Source: Cryobacterium levicorallinum (GTDB lineage: Bacteria; Actinomycetota; Actinomycetes; Actinomycetales; Microbacteriaceae). Taken from it: DNA of 64,000 bases. Positions 11,940 through 18,508 of the stretch are shown here, piece by piece. The stretch covers positions 370,297 to 434,296 of the forward strand of contig NZ_SOFE01000023.1 in NCBI RefSeq assembly GCF_004402405.1. Reading direction: 5' to 3'. Made by a program: the position numbers and the translations under genes. Below the pieces are notes generated by a model. It did no database searches. It saw nothing but the letters and a program-made list of their open reading frames with translations, and had not been told where the DNA came from. Position 1 is the first letter of the stretch. Each line of letters begins with the position of its first letter.

Positions 11940-12375
11940 GCGCCAGCGCGACCGATGGTGGAAGCGGGTCAGCAGCATCCGCTTGATGTGCTGGATCTGA
12001 TACCGGGATACCCGTCGACCGGAAGCTTGTCGGGGCGGCCTTGGACGGCCGCGTGGCGCCTGGCCGCCGCGAGACCCATTCCATAGACCGAACCACCCCT
12101 GCAGGGCACCCTGGCCCTGCGCGCGGAAATCGCCGACCACCTGGGGCATGCCAGGGGAGTGCGGTGTGAGGCCGAGGACATCGCCGTCACGGCTGGCACG
12201 AGTGAAGCACTCGCTCTTGTGGTCCTGGCGCTGCGGGAACATCTGGAGTCCGGTGCAGGAAAGGATTCCGCTCGAGCACCGCCTCTGGCTCGCGGCAATT
12301 CATGTCTTGGGAGCGAAATTTCCCGCTCCCCTCCGCTGCCCGTCGATTCATGCTCGGTTGGCTCGATCCGTTGAT
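11940..12375 (+). pseudogene. Decayed MocR-family (GntR/aminotransferase) regulator
   Basis: The plus strand gives LDLIPGYPSTGSL, then an in-frame TAG at 12084, then TLALRAEIADHLGHARGV and EDIAVTAGTSEAL, the linker and aminotransferase core expected of MocR regulators. Near 12255 the similarity moves to another frame (LEHRLWLAAIHVLGAKF) and near 12340 it returns (LPVDS). The winged-helix domain and the C-terminal half are gone, and the sequence ends where the minus-strand gene at 12386 stops. A MocR regulator divergent from a PNPOx-like gene is a familiar arrangement, so both remnants probably come from one lost locus. Confidence 0.6.
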
Positions 12376-12385
12376 ATCAAGCGGT

Positions 12386-15016
12386 TCAACTTCGGATTGC
12401 AAAGTGGTTTCGGCTCCTCAAGCCTGTGGTGGCAGCGTAATTGAATGCTCGGCCGACCAGGCGATACAGGTACCACGCGGCGACGCCGATGGCTAGTGAC
12501 GAGATCGTTCCGAACCAGGGGGCACTGGCCTCCCAAGTCGGGTAGACGACCCAGTGGGTGAGGTAGATGAACAGGGATGCGCTGGCCAGTAGTCGAACGG
12601 CCGGAACGAGGGTGCGCGGCATTCGCAGCCGTTCCACCCAGATCAGCAACAGTATTCCGGCCACCACAACTGCTTCGCGTGCTGGATCCCCGAAAAATCC
12701 GATCGTGGCGACGATCGCCGCTGACGATGCCGCCACACGCTTCCAGTTATTGTCGGCCCGGGCGATGACCCAGCCGAGCACGAGAGACCACAGCACGGTG
12801 AACGGGGTGTATCTTTCAATTCCTTCTGCCTCGATGCCGACGAGTGCGAATCGGGTCGTGACGGCTGCCGCGAACAGGGTGATCGGGAACGTCCACGGGT
12901 GCCGTCGTTCGAGGCGGTCGATCGGGCGAATTAGGAACATTGCCGCAAAGCCGAGCATGGTCCAGACGGCGGCCTCGAGAAACCAGAATTGCCATTGCTC
13001 GTTCCACTTGCCGTCGCCGGGGACGAGGTGGTTGACCAGCAGCGCTGTGGTCCAGGTGTACTTGCCGGTGAGCACGGCGACGGCCCCTATCCACAGCGTG
13101 GCCGGAATCGCGATCTGGGCTGCGCTTCTGAGCAGGCGGCGAACGCGCGTGGCCCCCGCAACGTCGGCGAGCTGAAACCTGGCCAGGTTGTATCCGGCGA
13201 CGGCGAGCAGCAGGTGTGCGCCGCCCTGCACGGTGATCAGGTCGGCATGGGTGCCGACGATCAGCACGATTGCGAGTGCGCGGAGAACGGCGGGAGTCTC
13301 GACCCGGGGAAAGCGGACCTTCCACGCTCCGACTGTCGCCGCTCCACGCTTCGCCGTTTCGCCCACGGCCGTGCTGTCAGCCTGTGGGGGAGGGCCGTCG
13401 GCCGAGGACGCGAGGTTCCGGGCCGATTGTGCTGGCCAATCCCGCGGCAACGCGCCGAGGAGGTCCTCCAGCCGCAGGGCCACCTCGACGTAGCTCAACG
13501 AATCCCCGCCGAGCCCGGCGAAAGTGTCGTCGATGGTCGCGTCTGGGCGCCCAAGGAGAACGATGAAAAGGTTACGGATCATGTCGGAGGTTGCGACCTG
13601 CCCGGGGTTCGCTGCTGTCGACGCCTTCTGGGCGTCGATCATCTGGGCATAACGGACGAGCGAGGCAAGGTCGGGCTTGCCGCTGGCTGTGCGAGGAAAC
13701 TCGCTCACCGTGTAGACGTGTATAGCGTGCGTGGGGATTCCGAGTAGCACAGCGGTGCGGGTTCGTGCCCTGACGACGTACCGGGCCGCACGGATGAATA
13801 CGAGCAAGCGTTCTCCGGTGCTTGCCGTACGGGCTTCGATTCCTTCCTCGGCGAGGAGGCGTTGGACGGAATCGAGGTCGACCCGGAGCCCATACACCTT
13901 CACGAATCGGTTTAGCCGTCCGACGACCTCGAACATGCCGTCCTCGCGGTGCCGGGCGAGATCGCCGGTGCGAAGCTCGTGGACCGTGCGCCCCAATGCG
14001 AAGTCGGCCGGTGTCTCGGCGTAGCCGAGCATGACGTTGGGGCCTTCGTAGACGAGTTCGCCGACGTCCGCTCCCGCCTCGGCATCGATGCGCAGGTGAC
14101 CTCCAGGGATGGGGCGGCCGATGCTGCCGGCGGCGTGGTCGGCGAGTTCCGCGGGGACGTACGCCATCCGCGCAGTGGCCTCTGTCTGCCCGTACATCAC
14201 GAAGAATTCGAACCCGCGACGCTCACCGAGGCGTGCGAAGCGGCGCACCGCTTCTGGGGCGAGGCGGCCGCCGGCTTGGGTGAGGTAGCGGATGCTCGCT
14301 GGCAACCGATCCGTGAAATTGCCCGCCTCGAGAAGCTCGAAGGTGTAGGGCACGCCCGCGAAAGAAGTGATCCGATGCATCCCGGCCTCGTCCCAGAACG
14401 CCGCGTCGGCCACCGATCGCTCGGTGAGGACGACGCTCGCTCCCGACACGAGGTGGCTGTTCAGGACCGAGAGGCCGTAGCAGTAATGCATCGGCAGCGT
14501 GGTTGCTGCCCGGTCTGCAGGCGTGAGACGCAGGTACGCCGCAATGGCTTGTGCGTTGCTCAGCAGGTTTTGCCGGGACAACCGAACGAGCTTCGGCGAC
14601 CCGGTGGACCCGGAGGTGCTCACCAGCATGGCTAGGTCGTCGGAGAAGCTGTGCGTGGATCCAGGCCGCATCTCCCGCAGGGCCGGGCCGTCCCCGTCGC
14701 GGACGGCAATGACGTCAGGGTCGAACCGTTCAGCCAGTGACGCGCGATGAGTCCGTGATGCTTCATCGTTACCCGGTGCGACCAGAAGCACCGGGTGGCC
14801 ACCTTCCAGAGCTGCAAGGTAGGTAACGATCGGCTCGACGGCATTTGCTGCCTCCAGCATCACGAGTCGGCGGACACGACCAAGCTCGAGACGGCGTATG
14901 GCGACCATCCTGGCTAGCTGGGCGTAGCTGAGGTCTCCACTACCGGTGACGAATGCGACGTCGTCGTCTGAGCCATTAAGGAGGGTCAGTCGTGGTGCGG
15001 GCATAGTGTGGAGCAC
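12386..15016 (-). CDS. Adenylation-carrier-membrane acyltransferase fusion protein
   Basis: An 876-residue single-chain protein from GTG 15016 (an ATG at 15004 is the alternative). Residues 1-450 are an AMP-forming acyl/aminoacyl ligase: STSGSTGSPK at about 133-142, YGQTEA at 275-280, TGDL at 350-353 and PRTASGK at 441-447. Residues 475-525 are a carrier domain with the phosphopantetheine serine S506 in GGDSLSYVE. Residues 575-860 are a polytopic domain resembling acyltransferase 3, with RALAIVLIVGTH near its start. The order suggests activation of an acyl group, loading on the carrier and transfer to a membrane or extracellular acceptor. The substrate cannot be told. A predicted iron box sits at the promoter, and no biosynthetic partner genes are adjacent. 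Confidence 0.85.
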   Translation of the reverse strand: MLHTMPAPRLTLLNGSDDDVAFVTGSGDLSYAQLARMVAIRRLELGRVRRLVMLEAANAVEPIVTYLAALEGGHPVLLVAPGNDEASRTHRASLAERFDPDVIAVRDGDGPALREMRPGSTHSFSDDLAMLVSTSGSTGSPKLVRLSRQNLLSNAQAIAAYLRLTPADRAATTLPMHYCYGLSVLNSHLVSGASVVLTERSVADAAFWDEAGMHRITSFAGVPYTFELLEAGNFTDRLPASIRYLTQAGGRLAPEAVRRFARLGERRGFEFFVMYGQTEATARMAYVPAELADHAAGSIGRPIPGGHLRIDAEAGADVGELVYEGPNVMLGYAETPADFALGRTVHELRTGDLARHREDGMFEVVGRLNRFVKVYGLRVDLDSVQRLLAEEGIEARTASTGERLLVFIRAARYVVRARTRTAVLLGIPTHAIHVYTVSEFPRTASGKPDLASLVRYAQMIDAQKASTAANPGQVATSDMIRNLFIVLLGRPDATIDDTFAGLGGDSLSYVEVALRLEDLLGALPRDWPAQSARNLASSADGPPPQADSTAVGETAKRGAATVGAWKVRFPRVETPAVLRALAIVLIVGTHADLITVQGGAHLLLAVAGYNLARFQLADVAGATRVRRLLRSAAQIAIPATLWIGAVAVLTGKYTWTTALLVNHLVPGDGKWNEQWQFWFLEAAVWTMLGFAAMFLIRPIDRLERRHPWTFPITLFAAAVTTRFALVGIEAEGIERYTPFTVLWSLVLGWVIARADNNWKRVAASSAAIVATIGFFGDPAREAVVVAGILLLIWVERLRMPRTLVPAVRLLASASLFIYLTHWVVYPTWEASAPWFGTISSLAIGVAAWYLYRLVGRAFNYAATTGLRSRNHFAIRS

Positions 15017-15048: not shown

Positions 15049-15067
15049 TTAGGTAAGGATACCCTAC
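15049..15067. promoter_or_regulatory. Predicted DtxR/IdeR-type iron box
   Basis: TTAGGTAAGGATACCCTAC matches the actinobacterial iron-box consensus TTAGGTTAGGCTAACCTAA at 15 of 19 positions and is partly palindromic. It lies 33 bp upstream of the GTG of the fusion gene and touches the putative -10 element, so a bound iron-loaded repressor would block transcription. The regulator itself is not in the window. Confidence 0.6.
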
Positions 15068-15357: not shown

Positions 15358-17742
<2,385 letters not shown>

Positions 17743-17743
17743 G

Positions 17744-18508
17744 CTATTCGCCCGTAAACCCGATCGTTTCGCCCACGTAGCGGGTGTTGCCGACCGGAAC
17801 CGGCTCAACCGCAGCGGCTACGACCTCCGCCGCGAACTCGCTGACGTTGTACAAGCGACCGGCCGCTTCCTTGCGGGCGCTGAGGGCACCGGGGTTGGAC
17901 CGCTCGAGCAGTGTCGCCGTGATGGTGCCCTCGATCATGTCGCCGGAGACCACGACAAAGCCGATGCCGGATTCCTCAAGCTGGGGGATCACCGCGCGCA
18001 GGGCATCCTCACCGGCACGCTTGCTGCGAGCCACCTGCTCATACTCCGGCATGGTCGGCGTGGTTTTGATGAAGTGCGCCTGGTGGCTGGTGACGTACAC
18101 GACGCGGGAGTCATCGCCGAGCAGCGGGACCGCTTCGTTGAGCAGGTTCACCTGGGCATCGTGGTTCAACGTCATGGCGTAGTCGGCGGGCATGCCACTC
18201 TCCATGCCGCCCGAGGCGTTCATCACCAGAATATCGAGGCCGCCGAATTCGGTGCGAATGGTCTCGAACATCGCGGCGACCGAGGCCGGGTCGGTCAGGT
18301 CGGCACCGACCGTGATGGCCGTACCGCCGGCAGCGCGAATGGCGTCGGCGAGTTTATTCGCGCGTGCCTCCTTATTGCGGTAGTTAATGACGACCCTGGC
18401 GCCGGCTTCGGCGAAGTACCCGACAGTATCGGCACCGATACCGCGGGAGGAGCCGGTGACGAGTACACGCTTGCCCTCGAGTGATCCTGCTGCAAGTGGA
18501 TTGGTCAC
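17744..18508 (-). CDS. SDR family NAD(P)-dependent oxidoreductase
   Basis: A 254-residue protein from GTG 18508, chosen because AAAAGGAG lies 6 bp upstream; an in-frame ATG at 18529 is upstream of that site. The cofactor motif TGSSRGIGADT is near the N-terminus, followed by a Rossmann fold; the NAG-type motif reads VMNASGG. The usual SDR YxxxK appears as YEQVARSKRA, with tyrosine and lysine spaced differently, so catalytic competence is uncertain. The gene is translationally adjacent to the UvrA-like ATPase. Substrate unknown. Confidence 0.85.
   Translation of the reverse strand: MTNPLAAGSLEGKRVLVTGSSRGIGADTVGYFAEAGARVVINYRNKEARANKLADAIRAAGGTAITVGADLTDPASVAAMFETIRTEFGGLDILVMNASGGMESGMPADYAMTLNHDAQVNLLNEAVPLLGDDSRVVYVTSHQAHFIKTTPTMPEYEQVARSKRAGEDALRAVIPQLEESGIGFVVVSGDMIEGTITATLLERSNPGALSARKEAAGRLYNVSEFAAEVVAAAVEPVPVGNTRYVGETIGFTGE

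Follow-up and report, generated by a model that had tools for sequence, protein, structure and literature searches.

In the Dlt system an adenylation enzyme, a carrier and a multi-helix membrane transferase (DltA, DltC and DltB) act in series. Mycobactin tail loading by MbtM (FadD33), MbtL and MbtK likewise combines IdeR-regulated activation of a non-amino acyl group, carrier loading and an acyltransferase in the service of iron acquisition, but these are separate soluble proteins with a GNAT-type transferase, and they form part of a nonribosomal peptide synthetase (NRPS)/polyketide synthase siderophore pathway. Adenylation and carrier domains are fused to membrane helices in the synthetases Pls and PosA, which differ in using an amino acid and in carrying a C-terminal tandem condensation-like polymerase, not an AT3 domain. 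Their products are epsilon-poly-lysine and, for PosA, delta-poly-ornithine (PMC10522769). The AT3 acyltransferases OafA/OafB, OatA, ExoH/ExoZ, MdoC, TmaT and CmmA share the PF01757 domain, ten transmembrane helices and an R/K-x10-H motif (PMC9558356). In the main text of that article acyl-CoA is the usual donor, acceptors are usually extracytoplasmic and chiefly envelope glycans, and the enzymes stand alone or are fused to SGNH or racemase domains; no fusion to adenylation or carrier domains is described there, and the words NRPS, AMP-binding and siderophore are absent. Here we describe a protein that joins an adenylation domain (A), a carrier domain (T) and an AT3 domain in one chain (A-T-AT3), encoded in a 64,000-nucleotide stretch of the Cryobacterium levicorallinum genome (contig NZ_SOFE01000023.1, positions 370,297 to 434,296; the window hereafter). 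The link of this family to iron is well supported, and we propose that the protein is an iron-starvation-induced acyl-transfer enzyme that serves ferric-iron acquisition with the importer FbpABC, its product being an Fe(III)-binding acyl conjugate, a reading to which we give a probability of about 0.5. The open-access literature, in which subscription journals are mostly not covered, held no description of an A-T-AT3 protein or of this combination among the matches listed.

An earlier, sequence-only reading of the window had predicted an iron box in the promoter of this gene and had found it unexpected for a wall-modification enzyme. A site close to the IdeR consensus (TWAGGTWAGSCTWACCTWA, as printed in PMC9505556) does stand there (Table 1), but we take it as the main clue instead of an oddity, because such boxes are conserved and over half of the actinobacterial loci are linked to a ferric-iron ATP-binding cassette (ABC) transporter. 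We scanned the promoters (300 bp upstream plus 45 gene bases) of 60 actinobacterial loci, none more than 97% identical to another; three matches restricted to the A domain (L108-L110) were left out of these counts, of the linkage counts and of the 69-sequence alignment used below. A site of at least 15/19 was found in 45 loci and one of at least 16/19 in 41. Grouping the loci at 80% identity gave 50 clusters, 37 of them with at least one boxed member, and grouping at 65% gave 30, of which 22 had one. The background outside promoters was 24 sites in 1.19 million positions, that is, 0.007 expected per promoter.

At three mismatches or fewer the host genome (3.75 Mb, estimated to be 100% complete) has five boxed places, and the reversed control pattern gives 0. 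Of the four boxes that do not belong to the A-T-AT3 gene, one precedes efeUOB (identified by NCBIfam equivalogs that score above cut-off), one precedes fbpABC, and two are found in a cluster for siderophore uptake that comprises genes for a Peripla_BP_2 binding protein and a siderophore-interacting protein as well as a major facilitator superfamily (MFS) gene. The A-T-AT3 gene is the sole biosynthetic enzyme recognised within reach of the five boxes, and it is predicted to be under DtxR/IdeR control and induced by iron shortage. No domain of a classical siderophore synthetase, whether of the NRPS or the NRPS-independent (NIS) type, was found in this host: Condensation and IucA/IucC gave 0 matches in its genome, whereas of 14 control genomes 4 and 2, respectively, gave positive-control matches. 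In this the host also differs from the setting of the mycobactin system, since the A-T-AT3 protein occurs here without any NRPS condensation domain.

The second line of evidence is linkage. In the actinobacterial set, 33 of the 60 loci have a ferric-iron ABC transporter of the SfuA/FbpA type close to the gene. An FbpA-like protein (tblastn, E <= 1e-10, within about 10 kb) was found in 31 of 57, a lower bound as some contigs end early (L028, where only fbpC is visible before the contig ends, was counted as unlinked), and among the three actinobacterial plasmid loci an 'iron ABC transporter' is annotated nearby in two, with none in L123. The A-T-AT3 and fbp genes come in four arrangements: convergent, in most Agromyces and Microbacterium loci, Mycetocola and others; fbp downstream in the same direction (L092, L095, L097, L107, L122 and L125, of which L092 and L125 have gene ends that overlap); fbp upstream in the same direction (L099, L101, L102 and L089, the last retaining a box of its own before the A-T-AT3 gene); and divergent (L038, L082 and L091). 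The linked binding protein of L018 matches the solved ferric-binding proteins YfuA (E 5e-124), SfuA (3e-121) and HitA (7e-76), the first two over the whole mature length, and thus belongs by sequence to the FbpABC/SfuABC importers; these would be a partner of A-T-AT3, not its equivalent, and we know of no dedicated acyltransferase partner for them. On the Rhodococcus fascians D188 plasmid (L125), the row of A-T-AT3 and iron transporter genes sits among genes for metal handling, which encode a cadmium resistance transporter, a P-type ATPase and an Nramp-family transporter.

The association is also seen at the level of whole genomes. Among the genomes sampled from the order, 18 of 22 carriers of the A-T-AT3 gene also have FbpA (E <= 1e-50), against 16 of 176 non-carriers (Fisher p 7e-13, uncorrected for relatedness; G243, with an A domain only, was not counted as a carrier). 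Of the four carriers without FbpA at this threshold, two (G307 and G316) encode a more divergent FbpA beside the gene, at L089 and L091. Since in 10 of the 18 FbpA-positive carriers the two genes are far apart or on separate contigs, shared DNA alone does not account for the association. These results bear on a different explanation, an iron-sparing remodelling of the envelope, in which a lipid or glycan is altered for some reason other than iron capture and the gene is linked to FbpABC through common regulation alone. Genes outside uptake can belong to the DtxR and RirA regulons, which would suit such a role, and envelope glycans are the main acceptors of AT3 enzymes (PMC9558356). We nevertheless think it unlikely, because the linkage recurs in four arrangements, the co-occurrence extends to genomes where the genes are not neighbours, and the other four boxes of the host all go with iron-uptake genes.

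The iron connection may extend beyond actinobacteria. In eleven proteobacterial plasmid loci we looked for the RirA motif, TGA-N9-TCA (PMC8822346), and found it just upstream of the gene in seven, with 0.06 expected each; control spacings of 7, 8, 10 and 11 gave 0, 1, 0 and 0. The positive loci are six from Rhizobiaceae and one from a record labelled Roseateles, a betaproteobacterium, which is marked unverified. The motif is absent in Leisingera, Paracoccus and Phyllobacterium, and Rhizobium sp. 007 has a spacing of 8. This evidence is weaker than the IdeR result, because the first half-site overlaps a -35-like TTGAC, several of the eleven loci are related, and two start sites had to be estimated in records without annotation. 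An Irr-like pattern was not found upstream of six plasmid loci. Because RirA is unrelated to DtxR, the link to iron would, if the motif is functional, have arisen under two regulators.

The earlier reading had given a single 876-residue open reading frame holding adenylation, carrier and AT3 domains; its coordinates proved exact, and AMP-binding, PP-binding and Acyl_transf_3 each exceed the curated Pfam cut-off. The A-domain motifs STSGSTGSPK, YGQTE, TGD and the SGK lysine K447 are intact and, together with the phosphopantetheine serine, they mark an NRPS-like adenylation-carrier unit, in agreement with a profile match of positions 14-519 to the adenylation-carrier region of LgrA. A full-length AlphaFold model (22 sequences in; mean predicted local distance difference test, pLDDT, 81; predicted template modelling score, pTM, 0.48) gave Foldseek matches that include EntE-EntB, PltF, MenE and MatB; the best 50 of 1302 matches are all adenylate-forming enzymes and so uninformative on AT3, and the arrangement of the domains in this model was disregarded because of its pTM. 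An alignment, A1, covered 22 of 28 loci. No full-length paralogue is present in the host genome, where six other matches comprise an A domain only.

For the membrane part, Acyl_transf_3 scores 52.8 bits against a cut-off of 31 and Pfam lists no MBOAT match, so the earlier suggestion of AT3 in place of MBOAT stands. A separate model of the AT3 part (20 sequences, mean pLDDT 83, pTM 0.81) has ten long helices, and the R579-x10-H590 motif is intact in the first of them, as in described members of the family. Of three distant relatives scanned with PF01757, two fall slightly under the cut-off (28.8 and 30.3) and one, L122, was not listed at E <= 0.01. A fold search with the AT3 model returned no solved structure from the PDB at E <= 0.001; it did return one viral predicted structure, the unnamed 637-residue A0A345N001 (E 6.9e-4, probability 1.00, TM 0.53).

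Conservation suggests that the three parts are kept as a unit. We aligned 69 sequences, namely the window protein, 59 other actinobacterial and 9 proteobacterial ones (L127 and L129 were excluded as their records lack gene annotation). The A residues E279, D352, R367, K373 and K447 and the AT3 residues R579 and H590 are kept in all 69 and the carrier serine in all but one, so the activation, carrier and transfer steps appear to be jointly under selection. The sequence-only reading had named two outcomes that would undo it, an ordinary NRPS fragment and C-terminal helices matching no acyltransferase, and we observed neither. An ordinary NRPS fragment or a stray acyl-CoA ligase joined to the rest by chance could be suspected from NCBIfam, where the best 25 of 91 matches all fall under their cut-offs, the top ones being adenylation families. 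With the three-domain protein and its motifs kept in 69 sequences from two phyla, and with no NRPS condensation domain in the host genome, we consider this explanation extremely improbable.

The adenylation pocket speaks to the substrate. In amino-acid adenylation domains, an Asp in motif A4 contacts the alpha-amino group and is the hallmark of alpha-amino-acid activation. The A4 stretch of the window protein reads HYCYGLS, and by eye two alignments with LgrA set that Asp against either C179 or G181; position 179 is Cys in 57 sequences and Ser in 12, and position 181 is Gly in 69/69, so that the motif is without an acidic residue throughout and the mark of an alpha-amino-acid adenylation domain is missing. 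The substrate is thus more likely to be a carboxylic acid without an alpha-amino group, and D-alanine or another alpha-amino acid is unlikely. Naming the acid by homology was attempted and abandoned, the nearest solved A domains (LgrA and the oxalate-, malonyl- and succinylbenzoate-CoA ligases) being too distant.

This result also bears on the likeness to DltA, DltC and DltB. The order of activation, carrier and membrane transfer is the same, and the comparison made in the sequence-only reading holds for architecture. The function is probably not shared: one chain replaces three, AT3 replaces MBOAT, the A4 motif lacks the amino-group-binding Asp, iron regulation is predicted, and the window gene is not beside wall genes, no dlt-type neighbours having been recognised by eye. 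That the protein attaches D-alanine or another aminoacyl group through an ester bond to a polymer on the outer face seems to us very unlikely, since, besides the missing A4 residue, the family is present in rhizobia, which have no teichoic acids, and such a role would leave the iron regulation and FbpABC linkage unexplained. Of the earlier proposal that an acyl or aminoacyl group is transferred, we retain the activate-carry-transfer unit with AT3 and drop the aminoacyl part.

Adenylation and thioester formation on a phosphopantetheine carrier are the established roles of the first two families. In the mechanism that we propose, the cytosolic A domain would adenylate a carboxylic acid other than an alpha-amino acid, as the pocket suggests, and the fused carrier would receive the acyl group on the phosphopantetheine arm of its S506, as the motifs predict. 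The ten-helix AT3 domain, to judge from its family, would then take the acyl group from the carrier, which replaces acyl-CoA, and pass it to an acceptor at or across the membrane. Regulation and linkage point to an Fe(III)-binding acyl conjugate as the product, surface-held or released, which may feed ferric ions to an FbpABC/SfuABC-type importer encoded next door or elsewhere in the same regulon.

Several observations weigh against this proposal. Fifteen of the 60 actinobacterial loci show no box that reaches 15/19 within 300 bp upstream of the gene: five of them stop at 14, L023 lacks upstream sequence, in L099 and L101 the box stands 3.7 kb upstream, before the fbpA of an fbpA-fbpB-fbpC-A-T-AT3 row, and seven show no box at all (L037, L080, L081, L100, L102, L106 and L107). 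The window gene itself is not linked to fbpABC, and the host FbpA, which matches SBP_bac_6, is encoded on another contig and is only 36% identical to the linked clade (L018). NCBIfam names no linked binding protein as an iron protein, giving only far-below-cut-off matches to 2-aminoethylphosphonate binding proteins, and none of the 11 proteobacterial relatives was found to have FbpA as a neighbour. The carrier serine S506 is kept in 68 of the 69 sequences and is Leu in L128, which is possibly a decaying copy or an alignment error. Finally, SfuA-type systems are considered to import unchelated iron, and SfuA/FbpA bind Fe3+ itself and not siderophores, so a chelating product is not demanded by the importer.

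Another possibility is a small diffusible siderophore made in the cytosol, where the AT3 domain would acylate a soluble metabolite, a separate exporter would release it and FbpABC would re-import it. Iron regulation and importer linkage fit this idea, and in three Microbacterium loci (L031, L032 and L034, at about 8.6-9.8 kb) a divergent MFS gene, assigned by Pfam in L031, shares the intergenic region that holds the iron box. That MFS family was found near the gene only in these three among the loci searched, other exporter families not having been searched for; no siderophore precursor genes were recognised by eye among the immediate neighbours; and the ligand of SfuA/FbpA is the ferric ion. 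We therefore regard a diffusible siderophore as rather unlikely. A distant relative of this MFS protein (23-27%) is encoded in the host at 11842-13050 of L120, divergent from the siderophore-interacting protein gene and with a box between them. Returning to the Fe(III)-binding acyl conjugate, we lean slightly towards an acceptor on the outer face, that is, at the surface, because the MFS family is absent near the other loci, because of the habit of the AT3 family and because SfuA takes naked iron. A released product is favoured by the divergent MFS genes of L031, L032 and L034.

In its most specific form, the proposal would amount to single-gene iron capture: when starved of iron, the cell would coat its membrane or wall with acyl groups that the one fused protein activates and exports, or would release them, and the resulting ferric-ion-binding layer would hand Fe3+ to the FbpA lipoprotein. 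We offer this form tentatively and hold it to be doubtful. If true, it would be a supply route for Fbp/Sfu importers that is free of siderophore synthetases, used by actinobacteria (under DtxR/IdeR) and rhizobia (under RirA), and also plasmid-borne. The domain families, the importer and the iron boxes are each already known, and the system would be categorically new only if the surface iron trap is right; still, iron regulation together with importer neighbours suggests a way of iron capture that has not been described. To our knowledge it is not settled by what means FbpABC/SfuABC importers are supplied with ferric iron when there is no dedicated siderophore, and a conserved enzyme with iron-repressor sites, linked to the importer in several gene orders, makes the question directly testable. 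The protein would moreover give the AT3 family a member whose acyl groups come from a carrier in the same chain and not from acyl-CoA, the usual donor (PMC9558356). Searches for siderophore clusters that rely on NRPS or NIS synthetases would likely miss the family, because plasmid records annotate it as 'AMP-binding protein' or the like.

The family is patchily distributed, as an accessory function would be. With the window's own genome included each time, matches were found in 9 of 199 genomes in the family sample, in 23 of 198 in the order sample (one, G243, with an A domain only) and in 18 of 396 in the phylum sample (G574, G589 and G718 with an A domain only). Within the genus, one of the three other genomes in the family sample is positive and two are negative at E <= 1e-40. 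A pattern scan of named genomes, able to pick up only close relatives, detected 20 loci, which belong to Cryobacterium, Agromyces, Microbacterium, Mycetocola, a Leucobacter genome bin and an unassigned Microbacteriaceae bin. Among plasmids, 104 records match, and in 68 of them a single place covers 80% or more of the protein. Rhizobium accounts for most (54), beside Leisingera, Rhodococcus, Sinorhizobium, Mycolicibacterium and others, and the records that are annotated at the match label the family 'AMP-binding protein', 'AMP-dependent synthetase' or similar. We examined the regions of 14 of these records. On the Rhizobium sp. Pop5 plasmid (L128, 4965-7574), two IS30 transposase genes lie just upstream of the relative, and on plasmid p2 of Rhizobium bangladeshense (L134, 7570-12241) it is followed by AAA ATPase, YcaO-like and TfuA-like genes; YcaO-TfuA pairs are found with modified peptides.

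Table 1. Coordinates of the A-T-AT3 gene, its domains and its promoter site in the window
Feature	Position	Strand	Remarks
A-T-AT3 protein gene	12386..15016	minus	876 aa; GTG start, alternative ATG 12 bases further in
Adenylation (acyl-activating) domain, A	13649..14977	minus	about residues 14-456; Pfam, LgrA profile match, Foldseek
Pfam AMP-binding core	14021-14644	minus	residues 125-332; E 9.6e-42
Carrier (PP-binding) domain, T	13454..13579	minus	residues 480-521; Pfam E 1.1e-5
Phosphopantetheine serine S506	13499-13501	minus	GGDS506L motif of carrier
AT3 (Acyl_transf_3) membrane acyltransferase domain	12527..13288	minus	residues 577-830; Pfam E 4.2e-14
DtxR/IdeR iron box (predicted)	15049-15067		16/19 to consensus TWAGGTWAGSCTWACCTWA; 51 to 33 bases before start codon

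The neighbours of the gene in the window, judged by eye except for the UvrA-like gene, include no glycan or peptide genes, as had been noted from the sequence. Directly downstream, a plus-strand frame (12102-12374) resembles by eye a remnant of a MocR-type regulator or aminotransferase, with no Pfam match for the residues scanned (from 12105-12320). Immediately upstream, the minus-strand gene at 15358-17808 encodes a UvrA-like protein of 816 residues, perhaps a short UvrA paralogue, which scores 670.7 with the NCBIfam UvrA model against a cut-off of 729.8.

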